Source: Hyaloraphidium curvatum (taxonomy: Eukaryota; Monoblepharomycota; Hyaloraphidiomycetes; Hyaloraphidiales; Hyaloraphidiaceae). Taken from it: a DNA stretch of 64,000 nt. Positions 10,945 to 61,671 of the stretch are shown in pieces; position 1 is the first letter of the stretch; every line of letters begins with the position of its first letter. The position numbers were made by a program, and so were the translations under genes. The stretch covers positions 434,001 through 498,000 of the forward strand of contig JAIVFI010000022.1 in assembly GCA_025558095.1 (NCBI GenBank), in the 5' to 3' direction. Under the pieces are notes generated by a model, which searched no databases, was not told the origin of the DNA, and saw nothing but the letters and a program-made list of their open reading frames with translations.

Positions 10945-13767
10945 TCAGTCGCTCCCGCTCCCGCTCGCGCTGCCCGACTTCCCGTCGTCCGAGTCGGACG
11001 ACGACGACGAATCGTCCTTGATGAACTCCGCGGAAAGGTTGCTGTCCTTGCCCTTGGCTGGTGCCGACTTGCTCGACGAAGCCTTGGGCTTGGAAGCTCC
11101 CTTGGAGGACTTCTTGGGCGCCTCGCTTTCGGAGCCCGAAGACGGAGGGACGTAACTCTTCATCTCCTCCTTGTACCGCTCCTTGTCCTTGGCGGCCATC
11201 TCCTCGTATTTCTGCCCCGATCGGCGCCTCAGCACGCGTCGACAGCAGCGGGCGATCGCAACAAGCCCACCTTCTTGTCCTCGGCGGAAATCTCCTTCCA
11301 CATCTCGCCGAGCTTCTTGCCGACCTCGTTGAAGGCGATCCCGGGGTTCTCGTCCTTGACCTGCTGCCGCTTGTCGTTCGAGAACATGAGGAACGCCGTC
11401 ATCGGCTTCTTGGGCGCCTTGGGGTCCTTCTTCTTCTTCTTCCGCTTGCCGCCCTCCTTGTCCGCGGCTTTCTTTGCCGGTTTCTCCTTTGCCGGCTTCT
11501 TCTCCTTGGCGGGCTTCTTTTCCTTCTTTTTCTCCTTCCGCGGGGCCTCCTCCTCGCTCCCCGATCCTGATCCCGAACTGTCGCTGTCCGAATCGGAATC
11601 CGAGTCGCTGCCGCTGCTGCCGCTTCCCGACTGAGAGGCCCATCAGCATGAAACACCGCCGTGGCGCGGAGACAACCCACGCCGCTGCTGCTGTCGTCGC
11701 CGCTCTCGGATCCGGACCCGGCCTTGGCCTTCTTGGCCTCCGGGTCGAAATCCTCGTCCTCTGCATACGCCGGGGACAACGTCAGACGGCGCCGAATGGC
11801 CGACTTGCGCGGCCTCCCACCTTCCGAGTCCTCGTCGTCGCCCATGTCCATGTTCTGCACCACCGTCCGCTTACGCTTCCTCGACCCGCCCTCCTCGTCG
11901 CTCCCCCCGCTCGCTTCCTCGTCGTCCTCGTCCTGGAACAGGACCCTCGTCTCCTCCGTCATCTCGGAGCGCACCTTGATCCCGTGCTTCTTGGCAAAGT
12001 CCTCGAGCGCGGGGTAGTCGTCCCGGCTGACGTTGCCGAACGTGACGTCCGGCCCGCCGCGCTGCGAGACGATGATCTCGAAGGTGCGCAGCGCCGCAGT
12101 GCCAGTGCCGGACGCGACGCGCTTGAAGGTGAGGGAGGAGATGTCGCGGAAGGGGAGGGCCATGGGCTGCTTGAAGAGCGAGAGGAAGCACTTGCCCGCC
12201 GGGCCCAGGGGGTAGATGTAGGCCTCGTTGGCCTTGTAGGTGCACTTGATGCCGGGCTTGCGGCGGCCGCCCGTGGAGACGAACGAGGACACGTCGGCGG
12301 GGTACTTTGGCCAGAGGAGCTCGGCCGTCTCCTTGTCGGTGATGACCTTCTGGTTCGTGACGACGGAAAAGACGTGCGAGATGACCTTGAAGATCTCGGC
12401 GTCGTAGTGCTGCTTGGACGGGTCGGGGAGGTCCGTCATGAGCCGCTTGAACTGCTCCTGGTGCTCCCTGGAAGGCAGCGTCCGATCAGCAGGCACAAGA
12501 CGTGAATTGCACCGCTGCAAACATACTCGTCGATCGCGTCCATGTTGGGGGCGTGTCCCTCGACCTCGTCGGCCCCGTTGAACTGGAACACGAGGTAGGG
12601 GTACCGGGTCTGGCCCTGCCGGATCGGCGGCTCCAGGTTGAGCACGAAAAAGTACTGCTGCTGCTCCTCGGGCTTGGGCAGCAGGAAGAGCCGCCGCACG
12701 GCCGAGTAGTTAATGCGGTAGTCCTGCGTCCGCCCGCGCAGCCGGAAGAAGGAGGAGTAAAAGGCCACCTCGAAGCGACCACTGGCAACAGCAAAAATGT
12801 CAGCAAAGCGAAACGGGAGTAGCAAACAAGCGACCCACCGAGGGGTGAGGCACAGCAGCTCCTCGAAGGTCATGATGGGCTCGCCCGTGAGCGCCGAGAT
12901 GTCCGCCTTGTCCTTGATGGTCTCGGCAAACATGTGGGCCGCCGAGACGGCCTGTCCGTCGTCGTCCAGAAAGACCTGCTCCTCCTCGTCGGCCTCCTCC
13001 GACTCGTCGTCGCCCTCCTTCCTGGGTTTCTTCTCGCCGTCCTCGGTCGCGGGCCCCACGAACTCGCCGTCGCGCTTTTTGGCGTTCCCAGGCACGTAGA
13101 AGCGGATCTCCATGAGCTCGTCCTCCCGCGACGGCTTGGCTGCGCCGTCCTGCGGGTGCGAGAACTCGAGCGAGACCTCGTTCTTGCCCGCCACCGACGC
13201 GTTCTGGACCTGGCCGAGGGGCACCTCGAAGGCCGGCTTGTTGCCGACGATGAAGTGCAGGTTGGAGCCCTGGAACTCGTACTGGCCCCAGTTCCAGCCC
13301 TTGATGGAGAATTCCTTTGTCTCCATCTGGAGCTTGTAGAACTGGCGCACGGTCGCCGAGAGCTCGTCGAAGGACTGGCGGGGTCGGCCGGCGCGGGCGA
13401 GATCCGGAACGGCGGCACCACGGGCATGTTGGATCTGAATTTAGAAGCGAGCCGGGAGCGCCTGCGGGCGGAGAACCCACGTCCTTTGGCAGGGCCTCAA
13501 AATCCATGATGTCGCCCTTTGCGTTGGCGATGCGCACGGTGGGGCCCCGCACGCCCTTGAACCACGCGACCTTCTTGACCTCCGCGGCGGGCACCGTCAG
13601 GGCCGCGTTGGTGTCGCGGTTCTTGAAGCCGATGCCCTGGGTGGGGGTGAGCGGGGCGCGGGGAGCGGTGCCGGGCGGCCCACCTGGTCGATCATGCGCA
13701 GCTTGCCGACGCCCGCCTGCGGGAACTTGCCCGACAGTACGACACCGTCGTAATCGATGCCGGGCAT
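10945..13767 (-). CDS. SSRP1: SSRP1 / Pob3, FACT histone chaperone subunit with its own HMG box
   Basis: Subunit of FACT, which with Spt16 loosens and restores nucleosomes during transcription and replication. Domains in order: an N-terminal PH-like/POB3_N region beginning MPGIDYDGVVLSGKF, the SSrecog PH domain with FSIKGWNWGQYEFQG and FEVPLGQVQNASV, the Rtt106-like middle domain with PIRQGQTRYPYLVFQF, a long acidic stretch, then a basic linker and an HMG box starting PKKPMTAFLMFSNDKRQ and continuing past a short intron near 11225-11275. The tail is Ser/Asp-rich, ending SGSGSD. Fungal Pob3 of the Dikarya lacks the HMG box (Nhp6 supplies it), so this architecture is of the animal/plant type. 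About six introns. It is head to head with ATM1, 102 bp between starts. Confidence 0.92.
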
Positions 13768-13869
13768 GATTCGTGCGCCGTCGGGGGAAACGAGGAAGGG
13801 GTATAGTGGTTGGGACGGCGAGCCCACGAAGGGAACGCGCGAAAGAGCGACCCCCTGACGGTTCACGCG

Positions 13870-15996
13870 ATGCGGCGGGCCGCGCTGTGTGCCGCTCCGT
13901 GGCGGTTCTCGCCCTCCGCATCGTTTCGACCGCATGCGCTGGGGCCCTTGGGCCCGCGATGGCCGGCGGTGTGCCCAACCGCGTGCCGGCTGCCTCCCAC
14001 CCCGGGGACGAGAACAGCCGCCTCGGCCACAGATCAGAAGGCAAAGACGCCGAAATCCGGTGCCACAAAGGGCCCTGCATCGGGCCCCGCCGGCTTGGCC
14101 GACCTCTTGCCCGCCAGCGGCGCCAAGAAGGGATCGGCGATCTCGATCGTGACGGAGATGCTCAAGTTCGTGTGGCCAAAGGCGGAGTGGGGCACGCGCG
14201 GCCGCGTCATGTTTGCCATGGGCCTGCTGGTCACGGGAAAGGTGCTGAACGTGACGGTGCCGTGGTTCTTCAAGCAGACCGTCGACATCCTCGGGGCGGC
14301 CCCCGTCGAGGGCAGCTACGCCCTGACCGGCGCCGGCGCCATGCTGCTAGGTTACGGCGCCGCCCGCCTCGGCTCGAACCTCGCGCAGGAGCTGCGCAAC
14401 GCGACCTTTGCCTCGGTCAGCCAGCGCGCCGTGCGTCGGGCCGCCCGCGGCGTATTCGACCACCTGCTGCACCTGGACCTGCGCTTCCACCTCTCGCGCC
14501 AGACCGGCGCGCTGACGCGGGCCATCGACCGCGGCACCAAGGCCATCAACCAGCTCCTGACCATGCTGGTCTTCAACGTCGTGCCCACCGTGCTCGAGAT
14601 CGGCCTCGTGTGCGGCGTCCTGTCCTACAATTACGGGGTTCAGTACGCCGTGGCCACCGTCGCCACCCTGGGCGCCTACACGGCCTGGACCTTCAGCACC
14701 ACGGCGTGGCGGGTCAAGATCCGTCGCAGGATGAACGCCGCGGACAACGAGGGCGCCAACCGCGCCACGGACTCGCTAATCAACTTCGAGGCGGTCAAGT
14801 ACTTTGGCAACGAGAAGTTTGAGGCGCGCCAGTACGACGAGTCGCTGGAAAAGTACGAGCAGGCCGCGCTCAAGACGGCCTACTCGCTCGCGTTGTTGAA
14901 CGCGGGCCAGAACGCCATCTTCAGCGTCGCCCTGACGGGGATGATGTATATGGCGGCCGGCGACGTGGCCTCGGGCCTGCTCACGGTCGGCGACCTGGTC
15001 ATGATCAACGGCCTCGTGTTCCAGCTCTCGATGCCGCTCAACTTCCTCGGCACCGTGTACCGCGAGACGGCGCAGGCGCTGACGGACATGGAGACCATGT
15101 TTGCCCTGCGAGGGGTGGACAGCAAGACGACCGACGCCCCCGGCACCCGGCCCCTGGTGCTTTCGTCGGCGCCCGCGATCCGCTTTGACAACGTCGTGTT
15201 CGGCTACCGCGACGACCGCCCGCCCGTGCTCAACGGCCTGACCCTCGAGATCCCCGCCGGCGCGCGCGCGGCCATCGTCGGCCCCAGTGGTTGCGGCAAG
15301 TCGACCGTGCTCAAGCTCCTCTTCCGCTTCTTCGAGCCCCGCAGCGGCTCCGTCATGATCGCCGGCGAGGACGTGCGCAACTTCGACCTGCGCTCGCTGC
15401 GGGACAGCATCGGCGTGGTCCCGCAGGACACGCCGCTCTTCAACCGCACGATCCTGTACAACATCCGGTACGGCCGCACCGACGCTTCGGACGAGGAGGT
15501 CTACGACGCCGCGCGGCGCGCGCGCATCCACGAAACCATCCTCGAGCGGTTCCCCGACGGGTACGCGAGCCAGGTCGGCGAGCGCGGGCTGATGATCTCG
15601 GGGGGCGAGAAGCAGCGCGTGGCGCTGGCCCGCGCGCTGCTCAAGGACCCGCCGATCATGCTCTTCGACGAGGCCACGTCGAGCCTGGACTCGGCGACCG
15701 AGGGCGAGATCATGGACAACATCCGCGCGGTGCTGGCGTCGCCCGTAAAACGGCCCGGCGGGCCCGCAGGCGCGGAGAGGGGCGGGCGGACGGCGGTGTT
15801 TGTCGCGCACAGGCTGAGCACCGTGGCCGACTGCGACGTCATCTTTGTGCTGCAGGCCGGGCGGCTGGTGGAGCAGGGGTCGCACGAGGAGCTGGTGCGC
15901 AGGCCCGAAGGGCTGTACGCGTCCATGTGGCGGGCGCAGCTGCAGGACACGGACACGGAACCCGCCGGCGCGGCGGCGGAGGAGTCGATGAAATAA
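13870..15996 (+). CDS. ATM1: Mitochondrial ABC exporter Atm1/ABCB7
   Basis: Half-size ABC transporter of the inner mitochondrial membrane. It exports a glutathione-linked sulfur compound needed for cytosolic Fe-S protein assembly. The 708-residue protein starts with an Arg/Ala/Pro-rich presequence (MRRAALCAAPWRF...), then six TM segments, then a nucleotide-binding domain with Walker A GPSGCGKST, signature ISGGEKQRVALARALL, Walker B IMLFDEATSSLDS and the switch His in VAHRLSTVADCD. The conserved LINFEAVKYFGNEKFE of the Atm1 subfamily separates it from other half transporters. The gene is intronless, unlike most neighbours. The reading frame runs 60 bp further upstream, but only from a TTG codon, so the ATG at 13870 was taken. 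Confidence 0.94.
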   Translation: MRRAALCAAPWRFSPSASFRPHALGPLGPRWPAVCPTACRLPPTPGTRTAASATDQKAKTPKSGATKGPASGPAGLADLLPASGAKKGSAISIVTEMLKFVWPKAEWGTRGRVMFAMGLLVTGKVLNVTVPWFFKQTVDILGAAPVEGSYALTGAGAMLLGYGAARLGSNLAQELRNATFASVSQRAVRRAARGVFDHLLHLDLRFHLSRQTGALTRAIDRGTKAINQLLTMLVFNVVPTVLEIGLVCGVLSYNYGVQYAVATVATLGAYTAWTFSTTAWRVKIRRRMNAADNEGANRATDSLINFEAVKYFGNEKFEARQYDESLEKYEQAALKTAYSLALLNAGQNAIFSVALTGMMYMAAGDVASGLLTVGDLVMINGLVFQLSMPLNFLGTVYRETAQALTDMETMFALRGVDSKTTDAPGTRPLVLSSAPAIRFDNVVFGYRDDRPPVLNGLTLEIPAGARAAIVGPSGCGKSTVLKLLFRFFEPRSGSVMIAGEDVRNFDLRSLRDSIGVVPQDTPLFNRTILYNIRYGRTDASDEEVYDAARRARIHETILERFPDGYASQVGERGLMISGGEKQRVALARALLKDPPIMLFDEATSSLDSATEGEIMDNIRAVLASPVKRPGGPAGAERGGRTAVFVAHRLSTVADCDVIFVLQAGRLVEQGSHEELVRRPEGLYASMWRAQLQDTDTEPAGAAAEESMK

Positions 15997-20740: not shown

Positions 20741-23700
20741 ATGGACTACACCTATCGGCCGAAGAAGCCGGCCAACGGGCTCCCCAAATCGCCCCTCTCG
20801 AATGGCTCCTCGAAACCCGCCGGCGAGCCCGCAAAGGCGGCCCCGAAACCCCCCTCCTCGACCGATACCCTGAACCAGAAGCTCTCGGGCATGACGCTCA
20901 CCGTCACCCCCGATCCCGCGGAATGGGACGGCGACGTCCGCGGCGCCCTCGCTTCGGGCGTGCTGGGCGGGATCCAGGCCGTGCTGCGGGACAAAAAGGC
21001 GGCTGCTGCCGCCAAGGAATCGGCGCTGAGCTCGCTGATTTCCATGATGCCCGGCGGCAAATCCGATTCCAAGGCCCTCCTGCCCTTCCTCCTCCCCCTG
21101 CTCCCGACGCTCCTGGACCTGTACGCCGAAAAGGCAAAGTCGACAGTGGAGCTGGCCAATAGGGCCACCAACGCTTTGCTTAAGCTGCCGAGCGCCTGGG
21201 CCTACTTCCCTGCCGTCTTTCCCGTGCTCTTGGATGTGGCAAAGAGCTCGGGGCCGAAGAAGGAGAGCCGGGTGGCCGCCCTGAAGCACCTGGGGGCGCT
21301 GGTCAAGCGGGGCGCCGGCAGACAGGTCGCGGAGCACCTGCCCGAGATCATCGAGGGGATCGAGCAGTGCCTGCACGACATTTCGGACGACGTCAGCAAG
21401 AACGCCATCAAGGTGCGTTGATCCGTGGAGGTTCCTTGGCCGGCCGCCAATCTGATCACATCCCACACTCAACAGGCGCTCACCGAGCTCTGTGCCGTCA
21501 TCACCAACGCCGATATTGTCCAGCACACCGAAATCCTCGTCTCCTGCATGGCTCGCCCAAACGAGGTCACCTCCTGCATCGACAAGATCGCGCGCACGAC
21601 GTTTGTCGCCACCGTCGACGGCCCCAGTCTTGCTGTGATGGTTCCCCTGCTCCTTCGCGCGCTCCAGGAGCGGTCGGCCGCGGTGATGAGGCAGACCGCC
21701 ATCATCATCGAGAACCTCTCCAAGCTGGTTGTGGACCCCGCCGAGGGCCGCAAGTTCCTCCCTCTCCTCCTGCCCGGCGTGGAAAAGATGGCCGAGACGG
21801 CGGCTTTCCCCGAGATCCGCACCCTCGCGCTCGGGGCCAAGAACTCGATAAAGAACGTCCTGGAGAAGGGCGCCGCGCCCGGGGCCGTGGTTGACTCGCG
21901 CATTTCCAACCTCGTGTTTCCGTTTGCGAAGCTGGACCTCGTGGCGAAGAAAGTCGCCTCGGTCGTCGAGGACCGCCTCATTTCGGCTGCCAAGTCGTCC
22001 TCGGAAGAGGGCGAGGGACCCGGGGAGAACGGCCTCAACGGCGTGGCCAACGGCAACGGACATGCGCACGGCCTGGGCGCGGACCTCCGTCAGAGCATTG
22101 ACTCGGTGGTGGCGCCCTCGCTGCTGGAGCTCATCAACTTCCAGGAGTACGACCAGGCGGAATGGAACGCCTCCATCATCCCCTACCTCAAGCCCCTGCT
22201 CCCCGTCGCCGAATCCGCCGCCGCCGTCGCCGAGTCGATCGCGGACGACATCTACAACCACTACGACCTCGAGTACCAGAAGGTTGCCGGGCCGCGCGCC
22301 GTCTCCCCCGTGGACCCCAACGAGGTGCCGCTCTGTGACATCACCTTCTCCCTCGCCTACGGTACCAAGCTCCTCCTCCACAACGCGCACATGCGGCTCG
22401 TCCGCGGGCGGCGCTACGGCCTCATCGGCCGCAACGGCGCCGGCAAGAGTACGCTGATGCGGTCCATCGCGGACGGCAAGGTGGAGAACTTCCCGGGCAA
22501 GGAGGAAGGGGTGCGGAGCATCTTTGTCGAGCACACGATCCAGGGCGAGGACAGCGAGCGGAATATCGTCGATTTCGTCATGGCATCCTTCAAGGAGGAC
22601 GATGCGCCGCCGGGCAAGCCGGATGCATTTTCGCGGGAGAACGTGGAGCGGTCGCTGCGGTCCGTCAGCTTCGACGACATGTTTCTGGGGATGCACGTCG
22701 GGGCGCTCAGCGGCGGTTGGAAAATGAAGCTGGCCCTGGCGCGCGCCGTGCTCTCCGAGGCCGATCTTTGGCTCCTCGACGAACCCACGAACCACCTTGG
22801 TAGGTTTTCATGCTGTGCGATCGTAGGCAGGGATTGCGGCTAACAATCGGACCGTTTTTCAGACCAAGCGACTGTCAAGTGGCTCATGAACTACCTCCTT
22901 GCGCTCAAGGACGTTACCATCCTCACCGTCTCGCACGACACCAACTTCCTCGACACCGTCCTCACCGACGTCCTCCACTACGAAAAGAACAAGAAGCTCA
23001 AGCACTACCGCGGCAACCTCGAGGACTTTGTCCGCCAGCGCCCCGAGGCCAAGACCTACTACACCCTTTCCGCCTCGGAGCTCAAGCTCGCCTTTCCCCG
23101 CGCCGGCATCCTCACCGGCATCCGCTCCCAGACCAAGGCCATCCTCTCCATGAACGACGTGACGTACACATACCCCGGCCGCGACACGCCCTCGCTGCAG
23201 AACGTCTCGTGCAAGATCTCGCTGTCGTCCAAGGTCGCCGTGCTGGGTCCCAACGGCGCCGGCAAGAGCACGCTGATCAAGGTGCTCACGGGCGAGGTGG
23301 TGCCGCAGCAGGGGAGCGTGAGCAAGCACCCCAACCTGCGCGTGGGCTACATTGCCCAACACGCGTTCCACCACCTGGATCACCACCTGGAGCTGAGTGG
23401 GTTGTGGAAACGAACGTGCGCTTGGCAGTGCTGACCTTGTTGTTTTGGCAGCGCCAAACAAGTACGTCCAGTGGCGGTACGCGACGGGCGAGGACCGCGA
23501 GGTCACCGAGAAGGAATCCCGCAAGATGTCCGAGGCGGAGCGCGAGCAGATGGAGGTCAAGATCGAGGTCCGCCCCGGCGAGTTCCGGCGGATCGAGTGC
23601 CTCGTCGGGCGGCAGAAGCTCGCCAAGTCGTACCAGTACGAGATCAAGTGGCGCGGCATGGAGCACCGCGACAACACCTGGGTCCCGCGGGAGCGGCTGG

Positions 23701-24446
23701 TGGACCGCGGCTTCGGCAAGCTCGTGCAGGCATTCGACGACCGCGAGGCCTCGCGCGAGGGGCTCGTTACCCGGGAGCTGAACCCGACGCTGATCAGGAA
23801 GCATTTCGAGGACATGGGGCTCGAGGGCGACATCGCCGACCACACACGGATCGGCATGTTGTCGGGTGGGCAGAAGGTCAAGGTCGTGCTGGCCGGTGCG
23901 CTGTGGAACCAGCCGCACGTGCTGGTGCTGGACGAGCCGACCAACTTCTTGGATCGGGAGACGCTGGGTGCGCTGGCCACGGCGATCCGGGACTGGAACG
24001 GTGCGTGGTGGTTGGGCCTGCCTGTCCGACTGTTTGCTGACTTTACTTGTGCAATCACAGGCGCCGTGCTCATGATTTCGCACGCGGCCGAGTTTGTTTC
24101 GGCCCTTGCGACCGAGACCTGGCACGTCGAGGGCGGACGGCTCACGCAGACGGGCCGGCAGTCTGTCCGGGACGATTTGTTCGAGGACGCGGCGTCATCG
24201 GGTACCGGAGGCGGGCGCGACTCGGATGCCGGCAGCTCCGTCGCCGGCGACAACAGCAGCCATTCGGTGGTCGACGCCAACCTCGAGGAGAAGGTCGAGC
24301 GGCTCAAGGCCAAGCGCAAGAAGCTGACCAACAAGCAGCTCAAGGAGCGCGCCACGCGGCGGCGGCTGCGGCATCTGGAGTGGCTGGCCAGCGGCAAGGG
24401 GCTCGAGGATAAGCCCGTGGACACGGATTCCGAGTCGGAGAAGTGA
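20741..24446 (+). CDS. TEF3: Translation elongation factor 3
   Basis: EF3 is a cytosolic tandem-ABC ATPase that helps release deacylated tRNA from the ribosomal E site; it is essential in fungi and nearly confined to them. Exons: join(20741..21412, 21476..22799, 22863..23396, 23452..24000, 24061..24446), giving 1154 residues; every junction is GT...AG. The order is HEAT-repeat domain, ABC1 (GRNGAGKST, LSGGWKMKLALARA, LLDEPTNHLD), ABC2 (GPNGAGKST, LSGGQKVKVVLAGALW, VLDEPTNFLD) with the diagnostic inserted chromodomain-like segment (YQYEIKWRGMEHRDNTWVP), and a basic C-terminal tail of KAKRKKLTNKQ type. About 100 residues longer than the yeast protein, through a longer N-terminus and a spacer after the HEAT repeats. 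This gene is the best single clue to a fungal host. Confidence 0.97.
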
Positions 24447-55232: not shown

Positions 55233-57193
55233 ATGGCGCGCGCACTTCTGTTCGCCGCGCTGGCCGCGCTCGCACTCCCCGTTTCCGGCGCGCCACGGTT
55301 CGACACGCGGCCGCCCGGCGCTCTGAGTCCGAACAGCGCCGGCAGTGCGCCGCAGGGGCCCCCGGCGTACGGCTTCCGGCCGCCCAAGGGCGCCCGGCCG
55401 CGCGGCCCGCTGTACTCGGCCGGCATCAGGCCGACGCCGGTCGATCCGGGAAGCACCGCGCCACCCGATGCCGGCGGCGGGGTGACGCCGAATGCACCGA
55501 GGGCGATGCGGTCGGTGGCCTACTTTCCGAGCTGGAGCTACGGTGGGTGATCGGCACCTGCCTCGTCGCCGACCACGCCCCCTGACCCGTTTTGGATTCG
55601 CCCAATTTAGCCGACGTGCCGCTCGTTCCCGATGTGGCCGGCCGCCTGTGAGTTGCCTAGCCGCAGCAGAGGCCTCCTGTTTCATTTCCGGGGCTGACTT
55701 GCTCCGTCCATCGCGCCTGTCACGTGAACTCGGCCACCACTCCCTGCCTCCCACTCTGGCCTTCCCATCTGCCAGCACCCACGTCATCTACGCGTTCGCA
55801 ACCACGAGCTTCCACAACGGCCAGTGGTACCTCGATTTCATGAACCCCGACCCCGAGACGCGGATCTGCCCCGTCGGCGGCGGATGCAGCGACGACTTTT
55901 GCATCACCTTCCCCGAGAACCAGTCATGCGACGGCGGCGCGACCGTCGCCATCACCCGTTTCGCCGGTCACCGCAACATCAGCGGCTGCCCGACGGCGAA
56001 CACGTGCTGGAACAAGATGGTGCCCTCACGGAACCCGCAGTGCACCGTCTCGGTGCCGAACCGCATCTGCGGGCAGCTGGGGTACCTCCTCAAGCGGGCC
56101 CGGAGCGAGCCGCAGAACCAGGGGGTCAGGTTCATGCTGGGGATCGGCGGCGGGATGGACAGCAACTACTTTGGCCATGCGACCATGGTCAACATGATCC
56201 CGTCGTTCGTCAGCAACATCGTCAACACGGTGATCAACTATGGGTTCGACGGCGTCGACATCGATTGGTAGGTGCAGGCCGAGGGCGGCAGCGCACACGA
56301 GCCGCGGCTGACCGTGCGTGCAGGGAGTACCCCACTTTTGAGCGCGGAGGGCAGCCGACCCCGAACGCCCCGTCCCGCGGGGAGTTCAACCAGGGCATCG
56401 ACTGCCTCTACCAGCCCTGCCAGCTGGGGGCGCGGGTCAACGACGGGCGCAAGTACGTCGATCTGATGCGGAGGCTGCGCGCGGCGTTCAACAGGCGCGG
56501 GCGCAACCGGTACGGCGAGCCCTACCTCGTGAGCACGGCGATCCCGGCCGTGCCGTACTACGTGGACCGGTTCAATGTGTCGGCAATCTGCGCGGTCAGC
56601 GACTTTATCAACGTCATGAGCTGTGGGTGTCTCGTCTTCTGCAACAGCAGCTCGCCTTTGCTGACGCTAGGCTGCACCCAGACGACTACTACGGCCCCTG
56701 GTCCTCCACGGCGGGGCCCAATGCCCCCCTCTTCAACACGCGCGACGCCGCCCTCTCCGTCTACGGCAGCTTCGACATGCTCGCCAACCGCGGCTGCCCC
56801 CGCTCCAAGATGAACCTCGGCATCCCCTTCTACGGCTACCGCTACTACGGCGTCTCCCCCGGCCCCACCGGCTTCGGCCTGTACATGCCCTACACGCGCG
56901 TGGGGTGGGACACTTCGGTCCGCTACTCGGACGTGCGCAACGCGGTGGCCTCGGAGCCGGGCTGGCGCGTGTTCTACGACAACAGGACGGCGACGACGTC
57001 GCAGAGCGCCGTGGCCTACAACCGCGCGAGGAGGGAGATGATCGCGTTCGAGGATCCGCAGACGATCGCGTGGAAGAGGGCGTGGGCGGCGAGGACGGGG
57101 GTGGGGGGGCTGATGTACTGGAGCCTGGGGCTGGACGACGAGGCGGGGTCGCTGCTGAGGGCCGCAGTGCCGACGATCAGAAGGCGGCCGTGA
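55233..57193 (+). CDS. Secreted GH18 chitinase-like glycoside hydrolase
   Basis: Family 18 glycoside hydrolase (TIM barrel). A signal peptide (MARALLFAALAALALPVSG) precedes a Pro/Gly-rich spacer of about 70 residues. The barrel begins SVAYFPSWSY, with strand 3 in FMLGIGGGMDSNYF and the catalytic strand-4 motif FDGVDIDWEYP (DxxDxDxE complete, with the catalytic Glu supplied by the next exon). Later blocks are ADFINVMS-like, then a stretch with DDYYGPW, LGIPFYGYRYYG and VGGLMYWSLGLDD. Introns: 55547-55775 (229 bp, unusually long), 56268-56323, and one near 56625-56670. The stop is at 57191-57193. Chitin-wall remodelling or feeding on chitin are both possible roles. Confidence 0.9.
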
Positions 57194-58062: not shown

Positions 58063-61000
58063 TCATCGCGCGAGTATCTCACCAGCAGGATCGGCCATGC
58101 AGTACCACAAGCTTCCACCATAATCGGGGCCTCCTGAGAAACACGTACGTAAGAGGGGTCCTTTCTCGCGTACAGTTGACCGCGTACCCGTTGGTGCATT
58201 GCACGCGGAGCTTGCCGAAGAGCCGGGCGACGAGGGTGGGGGAGGCGGAGGCGGAGGTGGAGGCGACGGCGGTGCGGATCGGACCGCGAAAGGGTTGGCT
58301 TGGCAATCGTACGACAAGGTCCTGACACTGGCACCATCACCGGTAGCTCTTCCCAAGTTGTGGCGACCCAGGTCAACCTAGTGAGAGACACGGCTTCAGC
58401 TCAGATTCAGAGGAAGCACGTTGAACCTACTGCGCCCCAGAAGGCTCGAACCCAGCCGTCAATGCGCACTTCCCACGGGTCGTGTCCCTCGCGGAGCTCT
58501 CGACAGATACCGGATACATCCGCCGCTCCACGAGCTTCGTAGTAAGTTCTGAAGCGTGCCGACAGGTCTATACCCCCCTCGGCGGCGCCCCAGAGCACGG
58601 ATCCGGCGGCAGCAACACCGAAAACAATGGTGCCGGCAGGGCGAGCCGTGACATCGGCACCAGCGCGAGCTTGGTCAAAGCAAACGGTGTTTCGCGCGTC
58701 GAGCTCGGCTCTCCCGTCCATGTAGATGGTTACGGCTGGCAAGTGACCGTCAACAAGCCGCGAAGATCCGAATGCATCGCACTCACCAATGTCCGCAATG
58801 CGAAGAATAGGCACGTTCACTCCGAGTTGCGCGATTCTCCGATCTCCAGTGTCGCCGAGCTCAGAGTCGACGGTGGTGCAGTCGGTCGACAATCCCTGGT
58901 TGATGTACGTGTAATCTCCTAGAACAAGCAAGGCTTGGGCGCTGTAGTATCCATCCCACTGCAGGCAAGTTGAGCAGCAAATTCCTAAGGGACATTTTCC
59001 ACAAGCCTACAGTGGAGAAGCCCAAACGTCCTTCAAAGAATGTGCTGCTTCGTCCGAACGCTCTGCCCTGGATTTTGGCGCCTCCAAAGGCTGATGAAGT
59101 CGAGTAATTAGTTTGACAGGCGACATCCTGCTTAGATTTGCGTACCTTTAAATCTCATCGTGCCGCCCTGCTCGCCAGCGCCTCCAAAGAGAGCCGCGAC
59201 GGCTCGGACATTAACCTGGTCGTTGCCCAAGTTGTAGGGGTAGACGTACCAGAAATGCTGAGCGAAACTCGCGTCAGGATCAGAAACAGATAACCTGACA
59301 TGTCCTTACGGCCGGGTAGCGCTGAAGGTCGCTGTACCTGTCGCTCGTGCTCTGCATGTCATCGAGGAGAGGAACCGAGTCGCTCCACGCCCGCTTCAAC
59401 AAATGGTGGAAGCCGCGCTTTGCCAAGTACTCCATTGCTTGGGGCTCAGCGAGCGTGGCAAGCTCCATGTCGAGCGCGTCAGGTCCCTCGGCATGCGGCT
59501 CACTGAGGGATCTGTGCGCCGCATCAATCACAGCAGCCCGTATCGTCTCATCGTGCCGAGCTCTGGCCAGTAGAGATGCGAGTTCCGCTCGTACATCCGG
59601 GCGATGCGCGTGTCGACGGAGAGAGAAAACAGCCGCTTCGGCCACTTGGCTATCGGATGGTGAAGCGGGAGTTTGCAGGAACGTTTTGAGAGAGTTGACT
59701 GGACAGTTCTTGCCAGCATTGCCGGCCGAGAGGATGGCTGTCGCGCATGCCGATACTGAAGCAGCTTCCCGAGCGGTGCCGTTCGAGCAGGCCTTCGACA
59801 CGAGGCGTAGAAGGATGGAGGACGCCGTCTCTTGGTCCGCGTGCTCGAGTACTTTGCCTAAAGCGAGGGATGCACGGCTGGAGAGCGCTGGCTCGATGGA
59901 AGAGCTCAAGGAGAACAGCTTGTCAACGACGGCGGGGTGCGAAGATGTGGCATGGAACACGCTGCCGATTGCAGCTTCTCGAATCGCCAGCTTTTGCGAC
60001 CCAAGACCATCGACAATGACCTGAAATGCGGCTTCGGTGTCGGCTGCGGCCAAAGTCTCGTAGACGCGCCTCGCAAACTCTCTAGACCGAGGCCCGGCGC
60101 TTTCAACAGCGGCATTTGCCGCGAATCCGGCGGCAAAGGCGTCCGCATTCGTTCCCGAGGAGAGCTCCAAGGAAAGCGAACGAAACAACTGCGAGTCCGC
60201 GGGGTCTTCCTCGAGTCTCCGGAGAAGGCCATGAATAGCCGAACCGCGGCGAACGAGGCGGCTCCGAGCGGGCGCAGTCCGTTGCTCACCAGCACCGGCA
60301 GCGGGCTTCGCCGTGTGCTTCAGGCTCTCGGTCGAAACCTGTCCGTTCCCTGCACGGCTCGCGAGGGCTGTGGATGCTATGCGCGGAAGAGCCGAGGCCA
60401 GCGAGAGACGCGTGAACGCGACCATGGGCAAGCCTTGCAACTGAGTCGCATTTTCGGGCGCTCGTGGATACCCGATGACCATCTCGGAGACTTCTTGAAC
60501 CTCCATGACCGTGCCGTCCAGACGTATCCACGCAATCGAGGTTTCGTTGAACGTTGCCGACGAATTGCTTTCGAACAGCGCGGTGTCGTCGTAGAAGGCC
60601 TGCACCGCAATACCGGGAGCCTGCTCATTGGTGACGGCGATGTAGGTGGAGTTCCGTGCCCCGTTGGCACCGACCTCGGCTGCAAGACCTCAAGTAAGCC
60701 CAACAGACAAGGAGCCGAAAGCAAAAGAGCCCACTGATGACCGCAGAGGAGCTATGGAAGACAAGATTGACTTGGAACGACTGGAAAAGCTCGATAAGTG
60801 CGTGATTCGAAGCGACCGATACGATTCCCACCTCAGCGATGCCCTTCTTGATATTAGCAACCTGAGAATCCTCGCCAGGGTGGACCTGCACGCCGACCAC
60901 GGTGCCATTGTTGGCGCGCAGGAATCGAAAAGGCTTGGAAAAGTTCGCCGAGACTTGATCGGAATAGTCCGGAGCGTTGCCGCGCAACGCGTCCAGCAGG

Positions 61001-61671
61001 GCGGATCCTGTTTCTGCCAGCCAGCTGGATCGTGCGCCGGCCTCGGAGATTCGAACGTTGGAAACCTGCAAGCTGCTATCAGAGTCCGAGTGGAAGGAAC
61101 TGATCAATCGGCCACCGACCGCAAGATCAAACATGTGGGACCGATCTGTGCCGTTCTCGCCGGCCGAAACCTCTCCAAGACAAGTCAGATAGGCGTGGGC
61201 TATGATCGTAAAGCCGGCACAAGCTTTCGGCCCCTGCGTAGCGGCCAGTTTCCCGATGCCGAAGCAAGTTGTGTAGTTGAACCTGTAGAGCAGCGTGGTG
61301 TTCGTCTTCACCAATCGTCAAGTCAATGGTGGAACTCGCACTCTGAGAAGCCAACACACCTGACATCCGGGAACGATGTGGCCATAGAATGACTCAAGAC
61401 CGTCGGGGAGTTCCGGCTTGGCTCCTGCAGCCGCAGCGGCGCCTGCGCCCTCCGGAACGAGACGCAGAGCGTCCCATTCGGGCGATGAGATCCCAGTCGA
61501 GCGGGATTTGAGGAGCAGCGCGACTGTGATGGCGCTGAGGGTCGCCAAGAGCAGCGCAACGGCGCCGGCGATGAGCAAGAGGCGGCAGCGCCTGGCGCCC
61601 TTCGAAATCTTGACCGAGCCACCGTCGGCGATGAGATTGGCGTCGCCGCTTTTCTCCATGCCGTCGGCCAT
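58063..61671 (-). CDS. Large lipid transfer protein (vitellogenin/MTP-like) with N-terminal membrane anchor
   Basis: The protein starts with a basic cytosolic tail and one TM segment (LLLIAGAVALLLATLSAIT), so the rest is lumenal or outside. After an intron (about 61300-61352) comes a beta-barrel-like part, TNTTLLYRFNYTTCFGIG and CAGFTIIAHAYLTCLG, then the LLTP signature region FSKPFRFLRANNGTVVGV and QVANIKKGIAEVGIVS. A helical HEAT-like region follows (about 60300-59290) with SAGNAGKNCPVNSLKTFLQ and VFSLRRHAHRPDVRAELA, as in the lipovitellin helical domain. Beta-rich segments (HFWYVYPYNLGNDQVNVRAV; DGYYSAQALLVLGDY) come next. The C-terminus has a Pro run and Cys-rich CFSGGPDYGGSLWYC. At least five introns; the last exons (58063-59150) are less sure. 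Several N-glycosylation sites. Animal relatives load or carry lipids; the role here is unknown. Confidence 0.7.
58231..58278. repeat. GGA/GGC-rich simple repeat coding a Pro run on the minus strand
   Basis: A GGGGGAGGCGGAGGCGGAGG-like run. On the minus strand it encodes the Pro run near the end of the lipid-transfer-like protein. Length is likely to vary between strains. Confidence 0.6.

Follow-up and report, generated by a model that had tools for sequence, protein, structure and literature searches.

The window analysed here, 64,000 nucleotides at positions 434001-498000 within one contig of Hyaloraphidium curvatum, a single-celled aquatic species placed in Fungi, Monoblepharomycota (genome of 31.9 Mb in 55 contigs), holds on its minus strand, at 58063..61671, a spliced gene which, with somewhat better than even confidence, encodes a fungal large lipid transfer protein (LLTP) akin to microsomal triglyceride transfer protein (MTP), with one copy in the genome, tethered to the membrane and glycosylated in the secretory pathway. 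MTP, vitellogenin and apolipoprotein B are commonly regarded as a superfamily of animals connected with lipoproteins. A fungal host for such a protein had been proposed in a sequence-only reading of the window, and the placement of the species agrees with it.

The gene is described by model C, which replaced two models with fewer introns (A and B) and comprises nine exons (61671-61360, 61305-61120, 61065-60832, 60780-60735, 60679-59310, 59257-59146, 59090-59011, 58958-58431 and 58377-58063) and eight GT-AG introns of 51-55 nt, for a product of 1060 amino acids (aa). Both limits set for the gene by the sequence-only reading were borne out, with the ATG at 61671 and the end of a stop codon at 58063. 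The deposited protein of this gene, DFJ74DRAFT_247424 (P0001), is a 725-aa 'hypothetical protein' with a precomputed PF01347 label on its record; its residues 1-716, derived from the first five exons, are identical to model C letter for letter, and the first four of the eight introns are common to both. The peptides quoted in the sequence-only reading are present in the sequence, except that the last two letters of VANIKKGIAEVG are intronic by the deposited model.

The sequence comparisons strongly support homology between the LLTP module of animals and both the N-terminal beta domain and the helical domain. The LLTP relationship claimed for this gene was checked by searching its spliced translation with PF01347 (Vitellogenin_N, cut-off of 24 bits), which gave a significant match to model C (60.3 bits, E 1.8e-16), while the deposited protein scored 61.9 bits. 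The N-terminal beta domain (residues 95-360; 60378..61389, minus strand, in pieces 61389-61360, 61305-61120, 61065-60832, 60780-60735 and 60679-60378) matched the profile by itself once spliced (31.1 bits, E 1.2e-7), and its hhalign score to mammal MTPs was reached by none of 150 local shuffles. With two introns left in, the same domain scored only 18.1 bits, and removing these introns therefore helps the homology as well as the splicing. On the other hand, a variant keeping 61119-61066 as coding sequence scored slightly higher than P0001 over the N-terminal and helical parts (63.6 vs 61.9 bits) and, consequently, this particular intron is not certain. The helical, HEAT-like domain (residues 361-716; 59310..60377, minus strand), containing SAGNAGKNCPVNSL, is held in the open frame 60689-59280, which matched PF01347 with 33.4 bits (E 2.6e-8) at profile positions 362-551. 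In the host genome PF01347 was found in one place only and in none of the 14 control prokaryotes; when the genome was searched with the protein itself, no clear paralogue emerged, two weak extra places being returned at E 0.105 and 0.172.

Of the animal proteins set against the fungal one (MTP, lipovitellin and VTG2), MTP was the closest, not the vitellogenins. The large subunit of MTP (PDB 8eoj, 6i7s) has the N-terminal beta and helical domains in co-linear order, as in the fungal protein, and both have GH near the start of the N-terminal domain. In the alignment, the NIKKG of the fungal VANIKKGIAE (60832..60861, minus strand) represents an N-I-K/V-R/K-G motif and stands against NIKRG of MTP and NIVRG of lipovitellin and VTG2. 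Vitellogenin/lipovitellin (PDB 1lsh) has the PF01347 module in common with the fungal protein and, in lamprey, also a GNAG motif. Apolipoprotein B, a superfamily member with a 4563-residue chain that was found with VTG2 as query, is a secreted lipoprotein scaffold.

The N-terminal region carries several traits by which the fungal protein departs from its animal counterparts. Residues 32-54 (61510..61578, minus strand), a putative membrane anchor, rank highest in hydropathy of all parts of the protein, in agreement with the membrane anchor that the sequence-only reading had seen instead of a cleaved signal. This first strong hydrophobic stretch is preceded by 31 residues that include a basic cluster, which speaks for an anchor. 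The preceding 15 residues contain five K+R and no D+E and the following 15 contain two of each class; from this charge distribution, the anchor is probably of type II, with a cytosolic N-terminus. Residues 55-360 hold nine N-x-S/T sequons against 2.43 expected, a number reached in none of 5000 shuffles, while residues 19-297 of human MTP hold none. Moreover, at two N-domain positions where MTP, lipovitellin and VTG2 have Cys in the alignment, the fungal protein has GARNSTY and YDDTAL, without Cys; these positions correspond to C174 and C194 of human MTP, a conserved pair joined by a disulfide.

Human MTP, in comparison, is a protein of 894 aa (1060 aa in model C) with Cys at both of these positions and with PF19444, its lipid-binding domain; it has a cleaved signal peptide and is soluble in the lumen of the endoplasmic reticulum (ER), where it forms a heterodimer with PDI. 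Because of the putative anchor, the sequons, the two absent Cys and the absence of a PF19444 match, the fungal protein is not simply an MTP. The module itself is known, and the deposited protein already carries its Pfam label.

From these features we infer that the protein would function in lipid transfer in the secretory pathway. The signal anchor would direct its insertion into the ER in type II orientation, the N-terminal domain would be glycosylated in the lumen, and the beta domain, the helical horseshoe and the parts encoded by the downstream exons would together enclose a hydrophobic lipid-binding cavity, allowing the protein to shuttle lipid on the lumenal side of membranes, either in the ER or further along the secretory pathway. 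The anchor, rather than soluble retention with PDI, would hold the protein at the membrane. The host genome has a PDI-like gene in the form of exon pieces on contig C29; these pieces score under the family cut-off, and the same search gave matches below the cut-off in 12 of 14 prokaryotes too.

The two gene models diverge after residue 716, where the deposited protein runs nine residues (VRTCQVICF) into the segment 59258..59309 (minus strand, 52 nt) and then stops. This segment appears to be a putative intron retained in the public gene model, by which the protein is cut short and the last four exons of model C are lost. It is read as an intron since its length and its GT-AG borders match those of the other introns, since its read-through frame has a codon-use score of -0.86, and since the next exon, 59257-59146, has the highest score of all nine exons. 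The codon scores were trained on seven open reading frames (ORFs) of the window picked by eye and are weak, with much noise when the stretch is short: the value is 0.57 for another frame of this segment, and the long exon of the helical domain reaches only -0.06. A correction of the deposited model, seemingly truncated, is proposed.

The region that this correction would restore (residues 717-956; 58431..59257, exons 59257-59146, 59090-59011 and 58958-58431, minus strand, with bounding introns of 52, 55, 52 and 53 nt) is a putative C-terminal beta-sheet region with mixed codon scores, those of exons 59090-59011 and 58958-58431 being less clear than that of exon 59257-59146. The beta-rich segments that the sequence-only reading had placed after the helical domain were not confirmed, being absent from the deposited model and without a Pfam match at E<=10. 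PF19444 gave no match to the whole model at E<=1 or to the C region at E<=10, and a genome search with this profile, run without a positive control, matched nowhere, controls included. Aligned locally to MTP, the C region gives as its best result a co-linear pairing of FWYV...STFFEG with FQYI...VTFFNG, a lead at most because 323 of 500 shuffles reach its score. The four downstream exons of model C could supply the sheets of a lipid cavity, although their similarity to MTP is not significant. The last exon (58063..58377, minus strand), where the sequence-only reading had seen a Pro run and a Cys-rich tail, does not fare better: its assumed frame scores below both other frames of the strand, and it does not have the look of coding sequence. 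If the last intron (58430-58378) is left unspliced, the frame closes at 58407 with AVGSTCFL, and for this reason the exon is doubtful.

Structure prediction was of low confidence, with a mean pLDDT of 39.9 for AlphaFold on P0001 alone and of 41.6 when 13 mammal MTPs were included in the alignment. The latter model displays strands in the N-terminal domain, a helix at 233-245 including NIKKGIAE and helical hairpins from 397, but is not independent evidence because MTPs were in its alignment; hairpins in the helical domain appear in both models. Among the 50 matches listed for each of the Foldseek and VIA-align searches, mostly helical-repeat proteins (HEAT, ARM, TOG and designed repeats) were obtained, for the helical part. 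MTP and lipovitellin were not among these listed matches, a result that excludes nothing. A phmmer search of model B against solved structures returned nine chains at E<=10, none of them an LLTP; in all nine the match fell in the C-terminal part that surrounds the Pro run. At the same threshold, a profile built from P0001 and the 13 mammal MTPs retrieved the two MTP chains plus two others, weak and unrelated.

The principal alternative to a lipid transfer protein, though an unlikely one, is that the LLTP module was redeployed in an anchored cell-surface or vacuolar glycoprotein which binds other ligands or proteins and carries out no bulk lipid transfer. The dense sequons of the N-terminal domain and the putative anchor would suit such a protein, as would the absence of the two conserved Cys and the lack of a recognisable lipid-binding C domain, but the NIKKG motif and the co-linear beta and helical architecture have been retained. 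Somewhat less probable still is that the gene really yields the deposited 725-aa form, namely beta and helical domains without cavity sheets, the downstream exons belonging to a separate gene or being non-coding. The stop of the deposited model within 59309-59258 and the mixed codon scores and missing Pfam match of the C exons are consistent with this possibility, whereas the intron-like length class and borders of that segment, the poor score of its read-through frame and the high score of the following exon, noisy as these scores are, argue against it.

It is very improbable that the protein is a generic HEAT-repeat protein with no relationship to LLTPs. HEAT_2 also matches the protein, under its cut-off, and the fold searches gave mostly helical repeats among the matches listed, but this explanation was rejected as the N-terminal beta domain alone passes PF01347 whereas its exact reverse gives no match. 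Animal contamination of the assembly, for which it could be said that passages of one paper (PMC1783640) speak of LLTPs in animals, has hardly any probability: the window lies within a single contig that also holds an EF-3-like gene recognised by eye, all eight introns of the model are 51-55 nt long, and two protein searches with this gene found only the Hyaloraphidium protein.

In these searches, residues 60-1010 of model B retrieved one protein at E<=0.01 among 7988 candidates scored, and residues 196-350 of P0001 one protein at E<=10 among 181 candidates, in both cases the fungal protein itself. With human MTP as query, 661 proteins were found at E<=0.001 among 7996 candidates scored; in the best 120 of the 661, the named organisms are all mammals (some rows being nameless) and all 120 carry PF19444, while non-animal members are possible among the other 541. 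The protein searches are word-based and miss distant relatives, so that absence from other fungi is not claimed. As to a bacterial origin, 42 stretches in genome contigs fit a peptide pattern and none was confirmed, a weak test because there were only two patterns and mammal MTPs largely determined the columns behind both. A literature search of partial coverage, over titles and abstract openings, found no description of an LLTP in a fungus, nor of the anchored, sequon-rich fungal form without the two Cys as a described protein.

On a broader scale, it is a tentative proposal, held at clearly less than even confidence, that LLTPs are older than the animal-fungus split or have moved across it and that Hyaloraphidium keeps a membrane-tethered, glycosylated and lipid-transferring form in its secretory pathway. 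If LLTPs did predate or cross this split, the lipoprotein-loading machinery of animals would therefore not be an animal invention. An anchored fungal member would then allow a test of whether the ancestral LLTP was a membrane-bound secretory lipid shuttle before its use in yolk and blood lipoproteins.

Elsewhere in the genome, a single match to the LDL-receptor class A family (G000:C23:157593-157673) reached 21.2 bits vs a cut-off of 24.1 and would be curious in a fungus if real. Within the window, the nearest plus-strand gene to the LLTP-like gene is a GH18 chitinase gene (PF00704) in two open frames at 55486-57193. Reading of the ORF list by eye further suggested an Atm1-resembling ABC transporter at 13807-15996 (plus strand) and, on the opposite strand, an SSRP1/Pob3-like gene at 11399-13440 (minus strand). 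The EF-3-like gene, an example of the ordinary eukaryotic genes in the window and also read by eye from this list, would encode an ABC ATPase with a chromodomain-like insert at 21422-24446 (plus strand), which fits a fungal contig.
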